Both the position numbers and the translations under genes were made by a program. Positions 1 through 10,530 of a stretch of DNA of 64,000 nt are shown here, in pieces. The stretch spans positions 102,379-166,378 of the forward strand of contig FUZR01000001.1 of the NCBI GenBank assembly GCA_900167895.1, in the 5' to 3' direction. The stretch is from Bacteroidales bacterium WCE2004. GTDB taxonomy: Bacteria > Bacteroidota > Bacteroidia > Bacteroidales > UBA932. How positions within the stretch are numbered: the first letter of the stretch is position 1; the number at the start of each line of letters is the position of its first letter. The notes beneath the pieces are model-generated. The model searched no databases. It worked only from the letters and a program-made list of their open reading frames with translations, and had not been told where the DNA came from.

Positions 1-959
1 CAGACATAGTCTTCCCCGTCAGGACGGAGGTTCACCTCGAATTCCTTGACGGGCACACCATCCTCGCCGAGGACCGGCCAGCCATCCGCCCAGGTCACGG
101 GCTGCAGCGTCGGGATGCGGCCCACGCCGCCGTGGTCCTGGAACATCATCGCGTACCAGTCGCCGCGCTGTGTCTGGACGATGGCGCCCTGCGCCACGCC
201 GTCCTGCCGGCCGTCGAACTTGCCCTGCAGGATGGTCCGGGGCTCATATTCGCCCAGCAGCGTGCGGCTGCGCCAGCAGGTCTCCGTGCGCACGCCGCCG
301 GCGGGCCAGTCGATCACCAGCACGTAGTACCAGTCGCCGATGTGGTAGATGTGCGCGCCCTCGGCCCGCAGCATATAACCCTCGCGCGGGCTGGAGATCA
401 GGAGCTGGTCCACACCGCCGGGCTTGACGCCCGACAGGTCGGGCTCCAGTTCGGTGATGTAGAGGTCGCCGTTGCCCCAGACCACGTACACGCGGCCGTC
501 CTCGAAGAGGAGCGACGCGTCGTGGAAAGGCCGGTCGATGACGCTGCGCGTCCACTTTTCGCCGATGCGCGGCGTAGAATAGATATAGGTCCTGCGCTGG
601 TCATTGGCGATGAACAGCGCCCAGAAGCGGCCGTTCTCATAGCGCAGTGTGGTCGCCCACTGGCCCTTGCCATAGGCATTGGCGCCGCCACGCAGGTTAT
701 AGACGTCGTCGTCCTCCAGGCAGTCGTAGACATAGTCGACGATGCGCCAGTGCACCAGGTCGCGCGAGTGCATGATGGGTGCGCCGGGGCAGTAATACAT
801 CGTGGTGCTTACCATATAGTAGTCCTCCCCCACCCGGATAACATCATTGTCCGGGATGTCGGTATAAGTCAGCGGATTGACGCAGTGCGTCGTCGGCCTG
901 GCGCAAGAAGCCGCCAGCAAGACGGTCAGCGCGAGCGCGAAAAACAGTTTTGTTCTCAT
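1..959 (-). CDS. GH43 family glycoside hydrolase lipoprotein (3' end outside window)
   Basis: Reading leftward from the ATG at 957-959, the frame stays open to the window edge (about 319 codons). The N-terminus is a lipoprotein signal with lipobox LLAASC, so the enzyme is probably anchored at the cell surface or in the periplasm. A five-bladed-propeller GH43 domain follows: the candidate general base lies in YTDIPDND, the pKa-modulating Asp in FHDASLL, and the general acid in RAEGAHIY. GH43 members of this type remove xylose or arabinose from hemicellulose side chains and oligosaccharides. The visible end (GRIPTLQPVTW) suggests that a C-terminal beta-sandwich follows outside the window. It starts 9 bp after the stop of the double GH43 gene, so it is the last seen gene of that leftward operon. 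Exact substrate cannot be told. Confidence 0.85.
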   Translation of the reverse strand, partial: MRTKLFFALALTVLLAASCARPTTHCVNPLTYTDIPDNDVIRVGEDYYMVSTTMYYCPGAPIMHSRDLVHWRIVDYVYDCLEDDDVYNLRGGANAYGKGQWATTLRYENGRFWALFIANDQRRTYIYSTPRIGEKWTRSVIDRPFHDASLLFEDGRVYVVWGNGDLYITELEPDLSGVKPGGVDQLLISSPREGYMLRAEGAHIYHIGDWYYVLVIDWPAGGVRTETCWRSRTLLGEYEPRTILQGKFDGRQDGVAQGAIVQTQRGDWYAMMFQDHGGVGRIPTLQPVTWADGWPVLGEDGVPVKEFEVNLRPDGEDYV

Positions 960-968
960 TTTCTTTTC

Positions 969-3581
969 TTACTTGATCTGCCACCAGTCCCACTCGAAGC
1001 CGCCTTCCGTGAACACGAAATACAGGTCGTGCACTCCCTTGGCGCCGCTCAGGCGGACATTCTGCTTCGTCCAGCCCTTGCCGGGCTTCACTTTGAGCGT
1101 GCCGGCCAGCGGACCGTCCGGCGCATCCAGGCGCACCTCGATCCCGGCCGCCTGCGCAGCCTGCACGCAGGCCGTCAGCGTCCGGGCGCCCCGCGCCCCG
1201 AAATCGACGCCCTTGACGAGCAGGTGCTCGCCCGCGTCGATGTCACTGACCACGATGCCGCGCTCCGCGTCCTTGCGGGTCTTGAGGCCGTAGCCCCAGG
1301 CCATCGTCTCCGCCTCGACGCGGCGATACGGGTCGAAAGGCTCGATCTGCTCCAGGACGTTGTCCAGCCAGTACGGGACCTTGCGGATGGAGCCGTCCGG
1401 CTCGTAGTACATCCGCGCCGCGGACACGCTCCGGCGCTCATGGTGCACGAATGTCTCCAGGTGCATCAGGTCGTAGTTGAGACCGAAGATATAGGACGCA
1501 CCCTTGTAGTCGATGATGCCGGGATGGTTGCCCCGCGTGCGCCAGGTGCGGTCCATGATATGGCCCATCGAGCGCCAGGGGCCCTCGGGGCTGTCCGCCA
1601 TCGCGTAGCCGATGCCCTCCGGGCAGCAGGTGGACGCGAAAGCGAGGTAATAATGCCCGTCGCGCTTGTAGAACCAGGGACCTTCCTGGTAGTGCGCGAT
1701 CTTGTAGTCCAGCATATGGATCGGGCCGTCGAGCGAGACCATGTCCTCATTGAGCTTCGCCCAGTAGACGTTCGGGTTGCCCCAGTACATATAGGCCTGC
1801 CCGTCGTCGTCGATGAACACCGACGGGTCGATGTCGTACCAGTGCTCCTTCTGCCACACCAGCGGCGCGCCTAGCGGGTCTTTGAAGGGCCCGAAGGGCG
1901 AATCGGACACCAGCACGCCGATGCCGTGGCCGTGGATCGGGCAGTACATATACCACTTGCCGCCACGCTCCACCACACACTCGGCCCAGGCGCCGTTCTT
2001 GCCCTCATACCAGGCGAAATCGTCCAGCGAGGCCACCGCGCCGTGGTCGGTCCAGTTGACCATGTCCGTGGAGGTGTAGCACAGCCAGTCGAACATCTCG
2101 AAGCCGTCCGCGCCGTCCTCATCGTGGGTCGTATAGAGATACACCACGCCGTCGTGCACATACGGAGCCGGATCGGCCGTGTATTTGGTCTGGATGAGCG
2201 GCATGTTGACCGTGCGGTTGAACTTCCACCAGTCCAGGTCGAAGAGCTCCCCGTCCCCGCCCCGGAAGAGCAGGTAGAGATCGTGCACGCCGCGGGCGCG
2301 GGCGCTGACCGGCGCCTTGACCATCATGTTGTCATTGTTGACCGTAACGGAAGCGACCGGCCGCCCGGACATCGCGTCCAGGTAGAACTCGATCACGCCT
2401 TCCGACTTGTAGTTCAGCATTTCCACGCTCACCAGCGTGGCCGGCTCCGCGCCGAAATCCACGTTGCGCAGCTGGATCCAGTCGCCGTTGTGGATGGACG
2501 TCACCCAGTGGCGGGCGCCGTCCTCGCGGTCGGTCTTGACGCCCCAGCTGGAGGCCATCGTCTCCGCCTGCGTCAGCTGGTAGGGATCCAGCGTCTGCAG
2601 CGGCGCCACGCCCTCCTGCGTGAACGGGATGAAGGGAATGCTGCCGTCCGCGCCGAACGCGAACTCCTCCACGCAGGTCGCGCGCCGGAAACCGCTTCCG
2701 TTGGGCAGGGCGCCGTTGTGATAGAACATATAATGATGCCCGCGGAAATCGACATTGCCGCCGTGGATGGTGAAGCTGTTGTCCGCTTCGTCCATGATGC
2801 GGCCCCGGTAGGTCCAAGGGCCGTGGATGGACGGCGAGGTGCTGTAGGCCATGTGCTCGGGCACGCCGCCGGCCGGATAGGACAGGTAGTAGAGCCCGTC
2901 GCGCTTGTAGAGCCAGGGACCCTCCTCATAGCCGACCATCAGCTTCTGTCGGCCGCCGTCGGACCAGTCCGGTTTCATCGACGCGGGGCCGAAACAGGCC
3001 GGATCACCCCAGCCGGGCACTTCCCGCCAGCCGTCCGGGAAGGACACCATGTCGTCGCCCAGGCGGCCGTACCAGCAGCCTTTGTTGCCCCAGAAGAGCC
3101 ACGCGGAGCCGTCGTCGTCGACGAAGACGGTCGGGTCGATGAACGCGAAACCAGTCGCGAGCGGGCCGCCGAGCGCGTCGACGTAGGGGCCCTGCGGGTC
3201 GTCCGCGACGGCCACGGCCAGCGCGTCGGCGCGCGTGGCGGCTTCGGTCAGGCAGACATACCAGTACCACTTGCCGCCGCGCTCCACGAGTTGCGAAGCC
3301 CAGGCGCGGTCGCCCTGGAAGGCCCAGGGGAAAGTGGCCGTGGAGACGGGCGTACCGAGATAGGTCCAGTTGGCCATGTCCTCGGTGCTGTAGAGCTGCC
3401 AGTCCTTCATCTTGAAGTACGTGGCGTCGTCCTCGTCGTGGTCGACGGCCAGATAGAGCTTGTCGCCGTGGACGAACGGAGCCGGATCCGGCGTGAAGGA
3501 CGTCCGGATCACGGGGTTCTGCGCGGTGCAGCACAGAGGAACCAGAAGGAGCAGACAACGCAACAAGATTACTCTATTCAT
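969..3581 (-). CDS. Double GH43-CBM6 glycoside hydrolase
   Basis: This 870-residue secreted protein (signal peptide about 1-20, cut near CTA/QNP) has two catalytic and two binding modules in series: GH43 about 24-320, CBM6-like about 330-450, GH43 about 460-745, CBM6-like about 755-870. Both GH43 halves keep the catalytic set: Asp base in TPDPAPFV (D32) and ADPAPYV (D470), Asp in IDPTVFVDDDG and IDPSVFIDDDG, and Glu acid in EGPWLYKRDG and EGPWFYKRDG. The halves match in order and motifs but differ in sequence, so this is an old internal duplication. Likely role is release of arabinose or xylose from arabinoxylan or arabinan. It is the middle gene of a leftward operon, 14 bp after the small secreted-protein gene and 9 bp before the GH43 lipoprotein gene. 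Confidence 0.9.
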   Translation of the reverse strand: MNRVILLRCLLLLVPLCCTAQNPVIRTSFTPDPAPFVHGDKLYLAVDHDEDDATYFKMKDWQLYSTEDMANWTYLGTPVSTATFPWAFQGDRAWASQLVERGGKWYWYVCLTEAATRADALAVAVADDPQGPYVDALGGPLATGFAFIDPTVFVDDDGSAWLFWGNKGCWYGRLGDDMVSFPDGWREVPGWGDPACFGPASMKPDWSDGGRQKLMVGYEEGPWLYKRDGLYYLSYPAGGVPEHMAYSTSPSIHGPWTYRGRIMDEADNSFTIHGGNVDFRGHHYMFYHNGALPNGSGFRRATCVEEFAFGADGSIPFIPFTQEGVAPLQTLDPYQLTQAETMASSWGVKTDREDGARHWVTSIHNGDWIQLRNVDFGAEPATLVSVEMLNYKSEGVIEFYLDAMSGRPVASVTVNNDNMMVKAPVSARARGVHDLYLLFRGGDGELFDLDWWKFNRTVNMPLIQTKYTADPAPYVHDGVVYLYTTHDEDGADGFEMFDWLCYTSTDMVNWTDHGAVASLDDFAWYEGKNGAWAECVVERGGKWYMYCPIHGHGIGVLVSDSPFGPFKDPLGAPLVWQKEHWYDIDPSVFIDDDGQAYMYWGNPNVYWAKLNEDMVSLDGPIHMLDYKIAHYQEGPWFYKRDGHYYLAFASTCCPEGIGYAMADSPEGPWRSMGHIMDRTWRTRGNHPGIIDYKGASYIFGLNYDLMHLETFVHHERRSVSAARMYYEPDGSIRKVPYWLDNVLEQIEPFDPYRRVEAETMAWGYGLKTRKDAERGIVVSDIDAGEHLLVKGVDFGARGARTLTACVQAAQAAGIEVRLDAPDGPLAGTLKVKPGKGWTKQNVRLSGAKGVHDLYFVFTEGGFEWDWWQIK

Positions 3582-3595
3582 TGTGGTTGGAATGG

Positions 3596-4165
3596 TTATG
3601 GTTTCACTAATTGTTCAAAGCCGCCGCTGCCCCGCAGCAAGGCATCGAAGCCCGACTGCCCGCGGGAATAGAGCGTGTCGCACGGATAGCGCGTCAGGCG
3701 GTTGCAGTGCGAGCAGCCCGGCATCTCGAAGAGCGTCCCCTGCGAGCCGCAGAGGAAGAAACTGTCGCGGATGGGGTCATAGCTCAGCGAGCAGGGCACG
3801 ACGTCCAGCACACACGGCACCCCGTTCTCCTTGTATTCCAGCGAACGGGCGCTCCACACCGTGCCCCGGCTGGACACATAGACGCCCAGATGGCCGTCGG
3901 CGTCCAGCCCGGCCACCATCACGGAGCCGCCGCCGGCCGCCACGGCGCGCCAGCGCATCTGCGGATAGAAGCCCGCGTACTGGGCGTTGAAGTCGAACGC
4001 GGTCCAGGTCTCGCCGTCCGCCGAACGCAGGATCTCCCCTGCTTCCGTGACAGTCCAGCGGACGCCGTCCGCATCGACGCAGGAAATCTGCCCGCGGGCA
4101 GCCGGAGCGCCCGCAAGCAGGAAAAACGTCAGGAAGAAAGCAAGATACTTTCGGAAACGGTCCAT
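3596..4165 (-). CDS. Secreted protein of unknown function, first gene of the GH43 operon
   Basis: The protein has 189 residues with a clear signal peptide (about 1-25, ARG/QIS). The ATG at 4163-4165 is chosen over an in-frame TTG one codon upstream. The mature part has repeated short beta-strand motifs (VRWTVTEAGEILRSADG; VYVSSRGTVWSARS) like BNR/Asp-box propeller repeats. It ends in a Cys-rich tail (CGSQGTLFEMPGCSHCNR, CDTLYSRG). I do not recognise a named family. It leads the operon with the two GH43 genes and is divergent from the GH51 gene, so a role in hemicellulose binding or use is only a contextual guess. Its first codons are repeated as a relic at about 8181-8202. Confidence 0.75.
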   Translation of the reverse strand: MDRFRKYLAFFLTFFLLAGAPAARGQISCVDADGVRWTVTEAGEILRSADGETWTAFDFNAQYAGFYPQMRWRAVAAGGGSVMVAGLDADGHLGVYVSSRGTVWSARSLEYKENGVPCVLDVVPCSLSYDPIRDSFFLCGSQGTLFEMPGCSHCNRLTRYPCDTLYSRGQSGFDALLRGSGGFEQLVKP

Positions 4166-4190
4166 CAATTGGTTTTGGCTTGATGCGTCC

Positions 4191-4220
4191 CAAAGGTACG
4201 AACTTCCCTTGCAATTTCAA
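4191..4220 (-). promoter_or_regulatory. Bacteroidota promoter for the leftward GH43 operon
   Basis: On the minus strand the -7 box TACCTTTG (plus strand CAAAGGTA, 4191-4198) is preceded after 19 bp by TTG (plus CAA, 4218-4220). This matches TTG-N19-21-TAnnTTTG. The start codon is 26 bp from the box. Confidence 0.75.
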
Positions 4221-4266
4221 GCGCATTTATGCATCTTTGTCACCTAAACTTATAACCGCCCCTATA

Positions 4267-7200
4267 ATGCACAAACACCACTTCATTGCTTGTCTTGCAG
4301 CTCTCTGTCTCTCCACCTGTGGCTTATTCCTCCACGCCCAGGAACCCGTCCGGCTGGACATCGATTCCCGCCACGTCCAGGGACAGATCGACCCGCTCAT
4401 CTACGGGCAGCTTTTCGAACACATCTATTTCTCCGCCAACAACGGCGTGTGGCAGGAGATCATCTACGGCCGCTCCTTCGAGCCCGAGCATTATCCCGGC
4501 ATCCCGCCGCGCGACGGCTACTTCGACGGCTGGTTCGCCGACGCGGAGGGCGTCCTGCATTCCCCCACCCGCTACGAGCAGCCCATCCCGCTGACCACGG
4601 TCGACACCGACAGCTACGACCTCGAGATGGATGTGGCCTGGCGCGCCTACCGCCTGCCCAACCGGCGCTGGAGCGGCGGCCTGCTGGACCTGCGCTTCGC
4701 GTTCAAGGACCAGGAGAACGGCGAGCCGTATTTCCTGCGCCTCTATGATCCCGCCTTCGAGGGCCAGCGCTTCAACCTGGCGCAGACGGCCGCGCAGGTC
4801 GAGGCCGACAACCAGGCCAAGGCCCTCGCCCAAGCCCAGAAGAAGGCCTCGAGCGCCGAGTTCTCCATCGCCACGCGCGTAGAGAAGGAAGTCACCTTCT
4901 TCGGCAACACCCGCAAGGTCACGGCGCTGGAGCCGCTCGCCACGGCTGCGGCCCAGGAGGCACAGACCGACCAGTCCGCCTGGCACCACCTCAAGATCAG
5001 CTGCCGCAAGCAGAAGGTGGCAGTGTGGTGGGACGGCGTCAAGGTCCTGAACACCAAGCTCCCCACCGGCCGCAAGAGCAATACGCTCACCCTCTGGGAG
5101 AATTATACCGAAGCCCGCTTCCGCAACATCACCGTCCGCGACGCCAGGGGCAAACAGACCTTCTTCGAAGGCCTGCCCGAGGCTGTCGCCATCCCCGACG
5201 TGGCGCCCGAATGGACCGCCTTCGGCGAAGGCCGCTTCAAGCTCGTCAAGGGCGACGCCGTCAATATGGACTATGCCCAGCAGATCACGACGCAGGGTCT
5301 CTCCGGCCTGCAGCAGGGCCCGCAGGCCGTGCGCCCGGGCGACGCCTTCGTAGGCTCCGTCTACGCCAAGGGCGACGGGCGGGCCCGGCTGACCGTCGGC
5401 CTGCGCCGGGACGACCAGTGGGTCGCCCGGCAGGAACTCGGCACCCCGTCCTCCGACTGGAAATGCTATGAATTCACCCTCGACGCCGGGGACTACGAAG
5501 GCGATGCGGACTTCGCCATCGCCGCCTCCGACGGCACGCTCCTGATCGACCAGGCCTCGATGGGCACCCGTTCCGGACAGGCCCTCGGCGGCTTCCGGCC
5601 CGACATTTTCGAGGCCGTCAAGACCCTGCACCCGACCTGCCTGCGCTGGCCGGGCGGCGGCTATGCCGCGCAATACGACTGGCGCTGGGGCATCGGCCCG
5701 CAGAAGGACCGCAAGCGCTGGGACCACTGGATGTGGATGGACTACGACCAGAACTGCTTCGGCACCGATGAATTCATCCAGTTCTGCCGTGCAATCGGCT
5801 CCGAACCCGTCATCGTGGTGAGCGTGGGTTTCGAGCGGCCCGAATCCGAATACGACCAGATCCTGCAGAACGCCGTGGACTGGCTGCGCTACTGCAATGA
5901 GCCCGCCACGGGCGAGTGGGGCGCCGTGCGCGCCGCCAACGGCCATCCTGAGCCCTACAACGTCAAATACTGGGAGATCGACAACGAGATGTGGGAGATG
6001 GGCATCGAGCGCTACGAGCGCTGCGTACGCGACTACTCCGCAGCGTTGCGCGCCGTCGATCCCGACATCAAGATCATCGCCTGCGGCGGTTTCCCGGAGG
6101 ACGAAGCCTTCCTGAAGCGCTCCGGCGCCTGTTTCGACTACCTCAGCCTGCACCACTACGAGCAGGCGGGCGGCTACGCCACGGGCCCCGGCCGCCTCGC
6201 TGAGCAATATAAGAAGTACGCGGAGATGATTGCCGCCTGCCCCAATCCCGACATCAAGCTGTTCATCTCCGAATGGAACCTCAACAGCACCGACTGGCGC
6301 ACGGGCCTGTTCGCCGGCGGCTTCCTCAACGTCTGCGAGCAGCTGGACGTAGTGGCGATGGGCGCCGCCGCGCTCTTCATCCGGCGCACCGACGCGCCCG
6401 ACTGGAACAACGCCTTCATCAACTTCGACTACAAGGACCTCTTCGTCGCCCCCAACTACCAGGTCACGGATCTTTGGTACGACCACTTCGCCCCGAACCG
6501 GCTTGCCGTTTCCGGCGACGCCAAAGAGCTGAGCGTCAGCGCTTCCCGCGCCAACGACAGCGGCATCGTGACCGTAAAGGTCGTCAACCCGACCGACAAG
6601 CCCTACAGCCTTACGCTCGCGCCGGACTGGAATTCCGTCGCCACGGCCGACTACGACTACATCGCGCCGGGCTCGCTCGACGCCGCCAACGACATGGCGC
6701 ACAAACAGGCCGTCCAGCACCAACGCAAGGCCCTGCAGCCCGAGGGCAAGACCGTCACCTTCACCGTCGAGCCCCTCTCCGCCGGCGTCGTCACGCTCAG
6801 CCGGAAGGTTTGGGCCGACATGGAGTTCTACGGCCACGTCTACGTGGATTTGGAGGTCAAAGGGAACGAAGCGCACTTCGTCCTGGATACGGGCGCACCC
6901 GACTCGTTCCCGGACAGCACCTTCGTCGCCCGAGACGGCCTCAAGTACGAACACACATACTTCACCAGGTGGGGCGGCGCCGGAGACGGCATGGTGACGG
7001 TGACGGTCATCAACCATGAATTCACCTATTCGATGGGCGGCAAGGAATACCAGACCGTCATCTCCCCCATCGTCGACCTCAAGGCAATCCTGGGAGACCA
7101 TGCCGACGGCCTGGTCGGCCTGAACGAGGTCGGCGACGCGGCCATTGCCATCGACTTCCAGAATAGAAAGGTCGGCTTCTGGGACAAGGTGGAAGCGGAG

Positions 7201-7917
7201 GACATAGAAGGATTCACGGCCATTCCGGTCGAGTATAAGAACATGCGGATCCTGCTGCCGGTCCGCGCACGGATCCGCGACGGGATCACCGTCGAAGGCA
7301 AGGTCCTGATGGATCTGGGCAGCCCCCATTCGCTTTCCCTGACGCGCGTCACCAGCGAAAAATATGGTCTGGCAGCCGTCCAGCCCTTCCTGGCCACCGC
7401 CTCGCTCGTCGGCGGCATCGGCGGCGGATCAAGCAGCCACAACTTCCGGGCGCTCGGCCTGGACCTCGGCCCGTTCTCGTTCGACGACGTCGTCATGACG
7501 TACAGCCTCAACAAAAAAGGAGCGCTGGCATATGGAGAATGGATCGGCCTCCTGGGCAATGATATCTGGGGCCGGTTCGACTTGATCATCGACGCATCCC
7601 ACGGCAAGCTCTACCTGCGGCCCAACGCCTACTATGACAAACCGTTCTCGGCCCCCACCCGGGGGTTCAGCGCGACTTATCGTTCGCAGACGCTCGGCTA
7701 TTGGCCGGTCAACTCCCTCTACGAGGGCTCCAACGCCCAGAAGGCCGGCCTGCGGCGCGGCGACCGCATCGTCGCCGTCAACGGCCGCGACGTCAAGACC
7801 TACAGCCACGAGGCCTACCGGACCTGGTCCGACGGCCTGCAGTCCGTCACCCTCACGGTCCTGCGCGACGGCCAGGAACTGGAAATCTCCTTCGATTTCG
7901 ACGAGCCGAAAATCTAA
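4267..7917 (+). CDS. GH51 alpha-L-arabinofuranosidase fused to aspartic protease and PDZ domains
   Basis: The protein has 1216 residues from ATG 4267, which opens a signal peptide (MHKHHFIACLAALCL, cut before QEP). About 25-850 is a GH51 enzyme with a carbohydrate-binding-like insert, the acid/base Glu in EIDNEMWEMG (E574) and nucleophile in FISEWN (E669). It should release arabinofuranose from arabinoxylan or arabinan. From about 855 a second protein begins: a retropepsin-like protease with two lobes (FVLDTGA, D874; LMDLGSP, D1016) and a C-terminal PDZ domain (about 1126-1216, AGLRRGDRIVAVNGRDV). This tail is homologous along its length to the next gene. No stop codon or frameshift separates the parts, so it is a true fusion. 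It is divergent from the GH43 operon. Confidence 0.9.
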   Translation: MHKHHFIACLAALCLSTCGLFLHAQEPVRLDIDSRHVQGQIDPLIYGQLFEHIYFSANNGVWQEIIYGRSFEPEHYPGIPPRDGYFDGWFADAEGVLHSPTRYEQPIPLTTVDTDSYDLEMDVAWRAYRLPNRRWSGGLLDLRFAFKDQENGEPYFLRLYDPAFEGQRFNLAQTAAQVEADNQAKALAQAQKKASSAEFSIATRVEKEVTFFGNTRKVTALEPLATAAAQEAQTDQSAWHHLKISCRKQKVAVWWDGVKVLNTKLPTGRKSNTLTLWENYTEARFRNITVRDARGKQTFFEGLPEAVAIPDVAPEWTAFGEGRFKLVKGDAVNMDYAQQITTQGLSGLQQGPQAVRPGDAFVGSVYAKGDGRARLTVGLRRDDQWVARQELGTPSSDWKCYEFTLDAGDYEGDADFAIAASDGTLLIDQASMGTRSGQALGGFRPDIFEAVKTLHPTCLRWPGGGYAAQYDWRWGIGPQKDRKRWDHWMWMDYDQNCFGTDEFIQFCRAIGSEPVIVVSVGFERPESEYDQILQNAVDWLRYCNEPATGEWGAVRAANGHPEPYNVKYWEIDNEMWEMGIERYERCVRDYSAALRAVDPDIKIIACGGFPEDEAFLKRSGACFDYLSLHHYEQAGGYATGPGRLAEQYKKYAEMIAACPNPDIKLFISEWNLNSTDWRTGLFAGGFLNVCEQLDVVAMGAAALFIRRTDAPDWNNAFINFDYKDLFVAPNYQVTDLWYDHFAPNRLAVSGDAKELSVSASRANDSGIVTVKVVNPTDKPYSLTLAPDWNSVATADYDYIAPGSLDAANDMAHKQAVQHQRKALQPEGKTVTFTVEPLSAGVVTLSRKVWADMEFYGHVYVDLEVKGNEAHFVLDTGAPDSFPDSTFVARDGLKYEHTYFTRWGGAGDGMVTVTVINHEFTYSMGGKEYQTVISPIVDLKAILGDHADGLVGLNEVGDAAIAIDFQNRKVGFWDKVEAEDIEGFTAIPVEYKNMRILLPVRARIRDGITVEGKVLMDLGSPHSLSLTRVTSEKYGLAAVQPFLATASLVGGIGGGSSSHNFRALGLDLGPFSFDDVVMTYSLNKKGALAYGEWIGLLGNDIWGRFDLIIDASHGKLYLRPNAYYDKPFSAPTRGFSATYRSQTLGYWPVNSLYEGSNAQKAGLRRGDRIVAVNGRDVKTYSHEAYRTWSDGLQSVTLTVLRDGQELEISFDFDEPKI

Positions 7918-7933
7918 AAACCGCACGGAATGC

Positions 7934-7963
7934 ATGCATTTACGGAAATAATTGATAACTCTG
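7934..7963 (+). promoter_or_regulatory. Decayed copy of the his operon promoter
   Basis: This aligns with the intact his promoter at 9502-9531. The -33 TTG has become ATG (7934-7936) and the -7 box TAACTTTG has become TAACTCTG (7956-7963). Both changes hit consensus bases, so this copy is probably weak or silent. Confidence 0.6.
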
Positions 7964-7970
7964 CAAGAGT

Positions 7971-8012
7971 ATGAAAATGACGCGCGCACATCACCACCAC
8001 CACCGAGTCTGA
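7971..8012 (+). CDS. Relic his leader peptide, upstream copy
   Basis: This 13-codon ORF reads MKMTRAHHHHHRV with five consecutive His codons. It is the duplicated counterpart of the leader ORF at 9539. It sits between the GH51-fusion stop and an attenuator-like hairpin at 8053-8086, followed by a truncated hisG, so any control it gave no longer leads to an intact his gene. Its promoter is damaged. Confidence 0.7.
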   Translation: MKMTRAHHHHHRV

Positions 8013-8052
8013 CAGATCCGGTAGGTCGGCGTGTGCATACTCATCGCAATAC

Positions 8053-8086
8053 AAGGCTTGCCGGGACACCGGGAAGCCTTTTTTTT
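8053..8086 (+). terminator. Attenuator-type terminator, upstream (relic) copy
   Basis: A 12-bp stem with one internal mismatch (AAGGCTTGCCGG / CCGGGAAGCCTT, loop GACA) is followed by eight T. It still looks functional and now probably serves as the terminator of the GH51-fusion gene. Confidence 0.75.
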
Positions 8087-8113
8087 GTATGATTTAAGTT
8101 AGTAGTTTTCGAT

Positions 8114-8221
8114 ATGCTCAGATTAGCCATCCAATCCAAGGGCCGTCTCAACGAAGAGAGCACCGCCAGTCCGGAGACTAGATACTTGTGCAAACAGTTC
8201 ATAGATTGGTTTTCGCTTTGA
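8114..8221 (+). pseudogene. Truncated hisG (first 18 codons) at the duplication join
   Basis: The first 18 codons encode MLRLAIQSKGRLNEESTA, identical in protein to the start of the intact hisG at 9679 and differing only at silent sites. After 8167 similarity stops and an unrelated 17-residue tail (SPETRYLCK onward) runs to TGA at 8219-8221, inside DNA derived from the promoter region of the GH43/GH51 pair. It cannot make an enzyme. Confidence 0.85.
8181..8202 (-). pseudogene. Relic 5' end of the small secreted-protein gene
   Basis: On the minus strand an ATG at 8202 is followed by codons for MNCLHKYL, matching MDRFRKYL of the gene starting at 4165, in the same position relative to the conserved promoter block. 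The similarity ends at about 8181, next to the hisG break. It marks the other side of the duplication join. Confidence 0.6.
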
Positions 8222-8228
8222 TGCGTCT

Positions 8229-8259
8229 CAAAGGTACAAACTTCCGCTTGCAAATTCAA
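8229..8259 (-). promoter_or_regulatory. Duplicated leftward promoter without a gene
   Basis: The minus-strand box TACCTTTG (plus CAAAGGTA, 8229-8236) and TTG 20 bp further (plus CAA, 8257-8259) are kept from the GH43 operon promoter. It now points at the hisG relic, the relic attenuator and the 3' end of the GH51 fusion, so transcripts from it would be antisense to these. Confidence 0.5.
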
Positions 8260-8306
8260 ACACAATTTCGCAACTTTACATTCTAAAATAAATACCTGAT
8301 TTATCT

Positions 8307-9485
8307 ATGCGCAAACACTTCCTCATCGCCATTCTGGCTTCCCTCAGCTTTTTCGCTTCCGCCCAGGAACCCTCAAAATACTTCCCGATGGATTTCTACC
8401 GCCACCTCTACCTCAACGTGACGGTCGAAGGCCGGGAAGCGCACTTCGCCCTGGACACGGGCGCCCCTTATTCGATCCCCGACAGCACCTTCGTGGCCCG
8501 GGAGGGCCTCCAATACAAGAATGTATTCAAGGCCCGGATGGGCGGCACCGGCAACGGCAAGGCCACGGTTCGCGTGATCAACAACGAATTCACCTATTCG
8601 ATGGGCGGCAGGCAGTATAAGAGCAAGATATCCCCCGTCGTCCAGCTGAAAGAGATCCTCGGCGACTACGCCGACGGCCTGGTCGGCCTCTCCGAGGTCG
8701 GCGACGCCGCCATCGCCATCGACTACGTGAACGGCCGGATCGGCTTCTGGGACAAGGTCGAGGCAAAAGACGTGGAAGGTTACACGGCCATCCCGGTCGA
8801 ATACAAGGACAACCGGATCCTGCTGCCGATCCGCGTGCAGGTCCGCGACGGGATCACCGTCGAGGGCAAGGCCATCATGGACCTGGGCAATCCCTATTCG
8901 ATCGATTTCACGCGCGCCGCAGCTGACAAGTTTGGCCTCCTGGCTGTCAAGCCCGTCCTGACGTCCTCGATGGCCGCCGGCGGCATCGGAGGAGGCAGCA
9001 GCAGCGGTGATTTCCGCGCGCAGCGCGCGGAGATCGGCCCGTTCGCGCTGGACGCTCCCATCGTGGCATACAGCTTCAACACCGAGGGCGCCCTTGCCGA
9101 CGGCAAATGGATCGCGCTGCTGGGCAACGAGATCTGGAGCCGCTTCGACATGGTCATCGACGCGGCCCACGGCAAGCTCTACCTGCGGCCCAACGCCACC
9201 TTCGCCGATCCTTTCGACTGTCCCGTCAAAGGTTTCAGCGCCACCTACCGCACGCAGACGCTCGGCTGCTGGACGGTCAACAGCCTCTACGACGGCTCCA
9301 ACGCCCAGAAGGCCGGCCTGCGGGGCGGCGACCGCATCGTCGCCGTCAACGGCCGCGACGTCAAGACCTACAGCCACGAGGCCTACCGGACCTGGTCCGA
9401 CGGCCTGCAGTCCGTCACCCTCACGGTCCTGCGCGACGGCCAGGAACAGGAAATCTCCTTCGATTTCGACGAGCCGAAACTCTAA
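8307..9485 (+). CDS. Secreted retropepsin-like aspartic protease with PDZ domain
   Basis: The protein has 392 residues. A signal peptide (1-19, FASA/QEP) is followed by a two-lobed retropepsin-like region (FALDTGA near 50; MDLGNPY near 194) and a PDZ domain (about 300-392) with AGLRGGDRIVAVNG. The first lobe has the classical DTG; in the second the Thr is Leu (DLG), as in the paralogous tail of the upstream fusion. If active it would cleave peptides in the periplasm or outside; substrate is unknown. The last 190 bp are almost identical to the upstream copy whereas the rest is clearly diverged. It precedes the his leader by about 50 bp and was probably derived from the GH51 fusion by duplication and internal deletion. 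Confidence 0.85.
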   Translation: MRKHFLIAILASLSFFASAQEPSKYFPMDFYRHLYLNVTVEGREAHFALDTGAPYSIPDSTFVAREGLQYKNVFKARMGGTGNGKATVRVINNEFTYSMGGRQYKSKISPVVQLKEILGDYADGLVGLSEVGDAAIAIDYVNGRIGFWDKVEAKDVEGYTAIPVEYKDNRILLPIRVQVRDGITVEGKAIMDLGNPYSIDFTRAAADKFGLLAVKPVLTSSMAAGGIGGGSSSGDFRAQRAEIGPFALDAPIVAYSFNTEGALADGKWIALLGNEIWSRFDMVIDAAHGKLYLRPNATFADPFDCPVKGFSATYRTQTLGCWTVNSLYDGSNAQKAGLRGGDRIVAVNGRDVKTYSHEAYRTWSDGLQSVTLTVLRDGQEQEISFDFDEPKL

Positions 9486-9501
9486 AAAGGGCACGGAATG
9501 C

Positions 9502-9531
9502 TTGCATTTACGGAAATAATTGATAACTTTG
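9502..9531 (+). promoter_or_regulatory. his operon promoter
   Basis: TTG at 9502-9504, a 19-bp spacer and TAACTTTG at 9524-9531 match the Bacteroidota consensus exactly. The leader ORF starts 7 bp after the box. Confidence 0.8.
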
Positions 9532-9538
9532 CCCAAGT

Positions 9539-9580
9539 ATGAATATGAAGCGCACTCATCACCACCACCACCGAGTCTGA
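9539..9580 (+). CDS. hisL: his operon leader peptide (five consecutive His codons)
   Basis: This 13-codon ORF reads MNMKRTHHHHHRV and ends in TGA. It lies just after the promoter and is followed at 9620 by an intrinsic terminator before hisG. By analogy with enterobacterial hisL, ribosome stalling at the His codons when charged tRNA-His is short should favour an antiterminator fold. A possible alternative pairing is TCCGGTA (9585-9591) with TGCCGGG (9626-9632). A perfect 12-bp palindrome (GTGCGTACGCAC, 9601-9612) lies between and may be a pause hairpin. The ORF, stop and terminator are seen directly; the mechanism is inferred. Confidence 0.85.
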   Translation: MNMKRTHHHHHRV

Positions 9581-9619
9581 CTGATCCGGTAGGTCGGCGT
9601 GTGCGTACGCACGCAATAC

Positions 9620-9652
9620 AGGGCTTGCCGGGATGCCGGGAAGCCCTTTTTT
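9620..9652 (+). terminator. his operon attenuator terminator
   Basis: AGGGCTTGCCGG (9620-9631) pairs with CCGGGAAGCCCT (9636-9647) with one internal mismatch and a GATG loop, followed by six T. It lies between the leader ORF and hisG, so readthrough is needed for operon expression. Confidence 0.85.
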
Positions 9653-9678
9653 GTTGAAATAAGTTAGTAGTAAAAGAT

Positions 9679-10530
9679 ATGCTCAGATTAGCCATTCAGT
9701 CCAAGGGCCGCCTCAACGAAGAGAGCACCGCCCTGCTGCGCGAGATCGGCATCGACGTCGATGACTCCCGCCGCAAATTCCTCGCCCAGGCCGCCAATTT
9801 CCCCCTGGAGCTCCTCTACATGCGCGACGACGACATCCCGCAGGTCGTCTCCAACGGCACCGCTTCCCTCGGCATCGTGGGGCTCAACGAAGTCGCGGAG
9901 CGCGGCTTCGACGTGCAAGTCGTGGAGAAGCTCGGCTTCGGCGCCTGCCGCATTTCGCTCGCCGTGCCCAAGACGGTGGACTACGACGGTCCGCAGTGGT
10001 TCAACGGCAAGCGCATCGCCACCTCCTACCCCAACATCCTGCGCAAATGGCTGCAGGAGCAGGGCATCGAGGCCGAGATCGAAGTGATCACCGGCTCCGT
10101 GGAGATCGCCCCGGCCGCCGACATCGCCGACGCCATCTTCGACATCGTCTCCTCCGGCGGCACCCTCGTCAGCAACGGCCTCCGCGAGGTGGAGAAGATC
10201 TTCTGGTCCGAGGCCGTGCTCATCTCTTCCGGCAAGCTCAGCGACGAGGAGCAGAAGGTGCTCGACGAGATGCTGTTCCGCTTCGAGTCCGCCAAGGTCA
10301 GCCGCCACAAGAAGTATATCCTGATGAATCTTCCGCAGGCTTCCGTCGAAGAGGCGACGCGCATCCTTCCGGCCATGCGCAGCCCGACCGTGATGCCGCT
10401 CGCCGCCGAGGGCTGGTGCTCGATGCACTCCGTGGTGGACGAAGCGGATCTCTGGGAGAAGATCCAGCAGCTCAAGGCCATCGGCGCCGAGGGCATCCTC
10501 GTTCTGAATATCGACAAAATCATCCCGTAA
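9679..10530 (+). CDS. hisG: ATP phosphoribosyltransferase (long form)
   Basis: HisG joins ATP and PRPP to give phosphoribosyl-ATP, the first and feedback-controlled step of histidine synthesis. The 283 residues fit the long form: a two-lobed catalytic part (about 1-210, with the phosphate-binding stretch IFDIVSSGGTLVSNGL) and an ACT-like C-terminal regulatory domain (about 211-283, TVMPLAAEGW), so no HisZ partner is needed. It is the first structural gene behind the attenuator. Its first 18 codons are repeated as a relic at 8114. The hisD start follows 4 bp after the stop. Confidence 0.97.
   Translation: MLRLAIQSKGRLNEESTALLREIGIDVDDSRRKFLAQAANFPLELLYMRDDDIPQVVSNGTASLGIVGLNEVAERGFDVQVVEKLGFGACRISLAVPKTVDYDGPQWFNGKRIATSYPNILRKWLQEQGIEAEIEVITGSVEIAPAADIADAIFDIVSSGGTLVSNGLREVEKIFWSEAVLISSGKLSDEEQKVLDEMLFRFESAKVSRHKKYILMNLPQASVEEATRILPAMRSPTVMPLAAEGWCSMHSVVDEADLWEKIQQLKAIGAEGILVLNIDKIIP

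Follow-up and report, generated by a model that had tools for sequence, protein, structure and literature searches.

How did one bacterial chromosome come to carry two histidine (his) leaders in a single locus, one opening the his operon and the other lying behind a carbohydrate-active gene? The locus spans 4143-9732 of a 64,000-nucleotide stretch of Bacteroidales bacterium WCE2004 (assembly GCA_900167895.1, contig FUZR01000001.1, positions 102,379 to 166,378 of the forward strand), which we call the window. Two genes for secreted proteins, A and B, are each preceded by a divergent promoter block and followed by a his leader and hisG sequence; A joins a glycoside hydrolase of family 51 (GH51) to the kind of protease that B carries alone. 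We conclude, with a probability of about three in four, that the locus is a tandem duplication that was later trimmed and reshuffled.

Comparison of 8141-9900 with 3501-8175 by blastn gave two matches in direct order, one between 6820-8167 and 8388-9732 (E = 0.0, 1355 columns, 80.4% identity) and one between 4143-4238 and 8180-8277 (E 3.6e-19, 98 columns, 80.6% identity); a third match (35 nucleotides, exact) is the self-match of the overlapping ends and was discounted. The repeat is beyond chance, which confirms an earlier note on this DNA that had described two direct copies of the promoter block and of the protease, leader and hisG part. The copies are adjacent, on the same strand and in the same order, and both blocks begin with the first part of a leftward gene and end at hisG codon 18. 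Similarity outside the protease region, which that note had proposed to look for, is present in the promoter block, the leader and the hisG piece, and GH51 is confined to the left copy, just where the note's bracketing had put it.

At the join, hisG is cut after 18 codons (8114-8167, plus strand), as had been claimed, and an intact hisG lies outside, where it begins the his operon (9679-10530, plus strand; Pfam HisG and HisG_C). The closest relative found is RUG544, an uncultured Bacteroidales assembly (relative G189), whose hisG protein is 100% identical to that of the window after rounding, with about one replacement; the 18-codon piece differs by 1 nucleotide from RUG544 hisG and by 3 from the window hisG at 9679. 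The cut leftward gene at the join (8168-8202, minus strand; MNCLHKYLVSGL) had been taken for the start of the gene at 3596-4165, an assignment that we dropped: in RUG544 the same start (MNCLHKYLVTGL) opens an intact glycoside hydrolase family 3 (GH3) gene of 1264 amino acids (L043:708-4502), whose N- and C-terminal Glyco_hydro_3 domains reach 193.3 bits (cutoff 31) and 120.2 bits (cutoff 27). The window retains the first 11-12 codons of this gene, with 1 difference in 35 nucleotides. Since the window's own genome holds no ortholog of it (15 pieces match, at 43% identity or less), the GH3 gene is lost from it. The expectation that intact copies of both cut genes lie on the outer sides thus held for hisG and failed for the leftward gene, the small gene on the outer side having GH3-like first codons. 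By sequence, the breakpoint falls in a microhomology (8156-8167) at which hisG (GAGAGCACCGCC) and RUG544 GH3 (GAGAGCGCCGCC) agree at 11 of 12 nucleotides. A tandem-duplication join, as the note had read it, is supported by the direct order, the cut hisG and GH3, this microhomology and an unduplicated relative. The hisG piece also continues through the GH3 fragment into the promoter block as a chimeric open reading frame of 35 codons (8114-8221).

The unduplicated relative is G298, in which a leftward GH3 gene, a promoter, a GH51 gene with its own stop, a his leader (MKQTRAYRHHHHRV) and hisG follow one another. Identity is 90% for GH3 (first 271 residues), 80% for GH51 and 91% for hisG. The arrangement that the note had asked for in relatives was therefore found there in its order and lacks one member, as no protease lies between GH51 and the leader. 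A carbohydrate-enzyme gene runs straight into a his attenuator in G298 without duplication, so the claim that the duplication placed the leader behind such a gene is not supported; its legacy is an extra leader whose promoter is broken by sequence.

Among 300 genomes of the genus, GH51 (E ≤ 1e-120) occurs in 34, the window's own and RUG544 included; of the other 32, surroundings were fetched for 9, and the remaining 23 were covered by open frames, with flanks of at most 1.5 kb for 10 of them. GH3 stands divergently beside GH51 in 6 of the 9 fetched regions, and hisG is near GH51 in G298 alone among 19 GH51 loci with flanks up to 1.5 kb. Viewed by eye over the 330 nucleotides before hisG, 31 hisG loci are unlike the window beyond the leader, apart from the window itself and RUG544. 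A scan of public genomes with the protease alignment A3 gave 36 loci (flanks up to 9 kb, several shorter), 35 without hisG nearby and the other being RUG544. The protease family (E ≤ 1e-8) is found in 14 of 400 genus genomes and exceeds 60% identity only in the window's genome and RUG544; relatives about 50% identical occur in other Bacteroidales. A scan of the genome collection with B alone as query gave no match, and a second genus sample centred on RUG544 yielded no new close relative, every match listed being known already. In 5 of the 18 matches of the protease scan of the genus, a distant protease (30-40% identical) contains one stop within the match (loci L033, L034, L035 and L040); the gene may be decaying, or it may just be shorter and end there.

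Protein A (4267-7917, plus strand; 1216 amino acids) comprises, by Pfam, a signal peptide, GH51 to about 6798, a retropepsin-like aspartic protease and a PDZ domain; protein B (8307-9485, plus strand; 392 amino acids) has the signal peptide, protease and PDZ domain alone, and its relatives P0001-P0009 are 85-99% identical. The GH51 domain of A, ASD1, scores 52.6 bits against a curated cutoff of 22.2, and its NE and SEWN contexts, which we take to be catalytic, are invariant in 7 sequences. An Asp_protease_2 domain with a DTG motif identifies the retropepsin-like part, in which DTG and DLG are invariant in 16 sequences. The GH51-protease-PDZ architecture is shared by at least four proteins from other sources, P0050-P0053 (1188-1216 amino acids, 69-90% identity in the protease part). 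These fusions share a junction that reads TLSRK, then V or E, then W, and at which the standalone GH51 proteins P0055 and P0060 end; in 9 of 9 fetched regions the GH51 stop falls where the fusion begins.

The identity between A and B is uneven: 73.5% in the protease body, 97.6% in the PDZ tract (7707-7870, plus strand), 86.8-87.9% in the leader region and 94.4% in the hisG piece. Over the protease body, window A and RUG544 A share 90.7%. Divergence between the copies is thus not even along the unit, as it would be after a single event with no later exchange, and these two age classes of similarity do not fit such an event. In RUG544, B stands beside the intact GH3 gene (contig C46) and A beside the leader and hisG (contig C73), which is the reverse of the window order. 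Because of the two age classes and the opposite order in RUG544, the sequences call for at least one further recombination beyond a single duplication, and the proposal that one event suffices is not supported.

Several observations, the reversed order in RUG544 among them, weigh against our reading. The two RUG544 contigs do not meet, and the hisG/GH3 join is on no RUG544 contig. The G298 contig breaks off within GH3 and does not reach the small gene. Synonymous divergence between the A and B bodies is 0.67, far above what the few changes in the hisG piece suggest; a dN/dS value for the GH51 part covered 9 codons and was discounted. Trees also disagree on which gave rise to the other, a fusion to B or a B-like gene to the fusion: with FastTree (residues 26-200) B is nested among the fusions, and with IQ-TREE it groups with P0053 over residues 28-320 (support 75, with the five other fusions at 94), all fusions group together among B-type proteins over residues 28-200 (77), and P0053 falls outside the rest over residues 201-320 (70). 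That B is a fusion copy that lost its GH51 is favoured, though unproven, because its promoter block is homologous to that of A.

Two histories fit the data, and we lean to the one in two steps, to which we give a chance somewhat short of even. It holds that A and B were already neighbours in the RUG544 order (GH3-B ... A-hisG) before a recent duplication reaching from GH3 codon ~12 to hisG codon 18, and that two deletions then gave the window. The RUG544 contigs fit unchanged, the hisG piece is nearer to RUG544 hisG than to that of the window, a single nucleotide in 35 separates the GH3 piece from its RUG544 counterpart, and the A-B body divergence stands against synonymous divergences between the genomes of 0.10 (hisG), 0.14 (A-A) and 0.21 (B-B, first 199 codons). 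However, three events are required in one lineage, and the neighbourhood of B and A is assumed, the stretch between them being unassembled in RUG544. A single old tandem duplication, followed by conversion over the PDZ tract, leader and hisG piece and by later loss of GH3 and of the GH51 of copy 2, would give the window order directly, and the contrast between PDZ tract and body shows that A and B exchange sequence. We consider it unlikely: RUG544 has the opposite order, and conversion by copy 2 alone does not explain why the GH3 piece looks no older than the hisG piece. That the assembly joined two strains or loci at the 12-nucleotide overlap is very improbable, for although a short near-repeat lies at the join and the search found no other assembly that carries it, the copies differ from each other (73-98% alike), the genome is in 5 contigs, RUG544 matches window 1-4139 and the his side as far as 16524 in the same order, and the copy-1 promoter has decayed as expected for a leader with no gene to serve.

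For a locus that was tandemly duplicated and then rearranged, we propose the following course. An ancestor would have been arranged as G298 is, and a protease gene would have become fused in frame to the last GH51 codons. A duplication would follow, and the GH51 body would disappear from one copy, which would put protease B under the promoter on the GH51 side and probably give it the signal peptide of GH51. At a short microhomology, hisG codon 18 would then be joined to GH3 codon ~12, and the GH3 body would be lost, leaving the small gene beside a GH3-like start. Finally, the PDZ ends of A and B would exchange sequence. What the sequences show is the repeat and its join, a relative without the duplication, a fragment that belongs to GH3, similarity that varies along the unit and a broken copy-1 promoter; the order of the steps is our reconstruction.

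The two leaders have fared differently. Copy 2 keeps a his promoter (TTG 9502-9504, TAACTTTG 9524-9531), a leader peptide (MNMKRTHHHHHRV, 9539-9580) and an attenuator (9502-9655 in all, plus strand). In copy 1 both promoter elements are broken (7934-7963, plus strand), the -33 TTG having become ATG (7934-7936) and the -7 TAACTTTG having become TAACTCTG (7956-7963). The copy-1 peptide (MKMTRAHHHHHRV, 7971-8012, plus strand) is followed by an attenuator (8018-8085, plus strand) with an antiterminator arm (8018-8027), a shared arm (8055-8064), a terminator 3' arm (8069-8078) and a T-run. The copy-1 leader is thus, as far as motifs tell, a promoterless attenuator behind A.

Between the end of the protease gene and the end of the hisG piece, 22 changes are private to copy 1, 3 to copy 2 and none to RUG544, with one site different in all three (22 against 3, binomial p 1.6e-4). 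Copy 1 is altered at 6 of 105 columns that are invariant in five functional leaders, two each in the promoter, in the linker and just before hisG; its His codons and antiterminator arm are untouched. Against RUG544, the copy-1 leader without hisG has 0 changes at the 54 positions that make up the His codons through the stop codon and the antiterminator, shared and terminator arms, and 22 at 136 elsewhere (Fisher 0.0006), and the His codons and antiterminator arm alone have 0 of 34 (p 0.016); the elements were delimited by anatomy but after the sequences were seen, so that both of these p-values are soft. One outer terminator pair of copy 1 is altered on both sides, from G-C to A-U, and the terminators fold at -20.1 (copy 1) and -22.2 kcal/mol (copy 2). 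Across 16 leaders, covariation supports the terminator, which has 19 cells changed on both sides, a level reached by 0 of 500 shuffles. In the antiterminator, 90% of cells pair (95.5% in the core helix), changes are mostly one-sided, and covariation is not significant, its score being equalled or exceeded in 73 of 500 shuffles. The copy-1 attenuator probably still folds.

Because the leader behind A keeps a complete attenuator, the A transcript would end at, or pass through, a histidine-responsive type of structure. We think it improbable that the spare attenuator still operates as a histidine switch without a promoter. If it did, GH51-protease transcripts would stop there with histidine plentiful and, with histidine scarce, would read through into protease B, whose own -7 box is degenerate, and towards the his operon, so that the output of a secreted protease would be tied to the need for histidine.

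A His-rich leader open reading frame precedes hisG in both window copies. The script named one in 27 of 31 hisG loci and none in 4, the 27 including a spurious frame (L073) and a wrong frame at L069, where a His-run frame is nevertheless visible. Rfam covariance models gave 0 matches to 7000-10000 up to E = 1. In 12 of the 16 genus hisG loci that have a leader frame (window 9524-9541 and loci from L044-L061 and L074) the -7 box, perfect in 8 and with one mismatch in 4, ends 6-9 nucleotides before the leader ATG; the distance is 19-20 nucleotides at L057 and L058, and the script found no box near the ATG at L060 and L061. Three further genus hisG loci have no leader. Given the close spacing, the transcript that encodes the leader peptide may itself be almost leaderless.

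The divergent promoter blocks were called by motif matches; the TAnnTTTG and TTTG consensus is that of B. fragilis, as given in PMC7366714. The block of A (4143-4266) has a leftward -7 box TACCTTTG at 4191-4198 and a rightward -7-like box CATCTTTG at 4232-4239. In the block of B (8203-8306) the leftward TACCTTTG (8229-8236) is intact and the rightward -7-like box, CAACTTTA (8271-8278), is degenerate; its RUG544 counterpart is CATCTTTA. Since six relatives with GH3 beside GH51 have a perfect TAnnTTTG before GH51 where the B block has CAACTTTA, the promoter of B itself looks weak. The intact leftward box at 8229-8236, which belonged to the lost GH3 gene, now points antisense through the hisG fragment and the copy-1 attenuator into the 3' end of gene A.

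On the left flank, window 1-4139 is 93.7% identical to RUG544 contig C46, and the match stops at 4139. The small secreted gene there (3596-4165, minus strand) has no Pfam family; its first ~8 codons (MDRFRKYL) resemble the GH3 starts of relatives (MNCIRKVF, MNIIRKYF), and the rest corresponds to the small gene that relatives have. In RUG544 that gene starts MMFRRFFLLTFFLLAG directly behind the GH3 stop, and in the window it adjoins the promoter block of A instead. Downstream in the leftward gene group lies an enzyme with two GH43 and two CBM6 stretches by Pfam (969-3581, minus strand), whose DNA repeats ~1.3 kb apart represent an internal duplication.

In the literature that we searched on his attenuation in Bacteroidetes, on Bacteroides promoters and leaderless genes and on duplicated attenuators, neither the locus nor a Bacteroidales his leader is described, and a search on GH51-protease fusions found no description of the fusion. 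An article on the his genes of Bacteroidota (PMC8305728) mentions attenuation once, for S. enterica. The locus is a natural experiment on an amino-acid attenuator, since a single genome holds one leader that has its promoter and operon and another that has neither, with unduplicated G298 as the reference, and it displays an enzyme architecture in which GH51 is fused to a secreted aspartic protease with a PDZ domain.

Enterobacterial hisL-type attenuation is ribosome-mediated and relies on a short peptide containing consecutive His codons, on two stems that exclude each other (antiterminator and terminator) and on a T-run, with hisG downstream. The window leaders share the His-run peptide, the terminator stem with a putative antiterminator alternative and the T-run, with hisG downstream in copy 2, and differ in having no Rfam match, Bacteroides-type promoter boxes and a -7 box close to the leader ATG; copy 1 further lacks a working promoter and hisG. 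Protein A is like other GH51 alpha-L-arabinofuranosidases in its ASD1 domain, with relatives such as 3s2c and 6zps in the PDB, and unlike them in its C-terminal retropepsin-PDZ fusion. Its DTG and DLG motifs are those of secreted retropepsin-like proteases with PDZ (PF13650 and PF17820), but its protease has no signal peptide of its own and is fused behind GH51. As in known tandem duplications by unequal exchange at microhomology, the order is direct, the genes at the join are truncated and the outer hisG is intact; unlike them, the window in our reading then lost GH51 from one copy as well as GH3, and exchanged PDZ ends. The mechanism of duplication is ordinary, and the fusion and the stranded attenuator are its unusual products and new variants.

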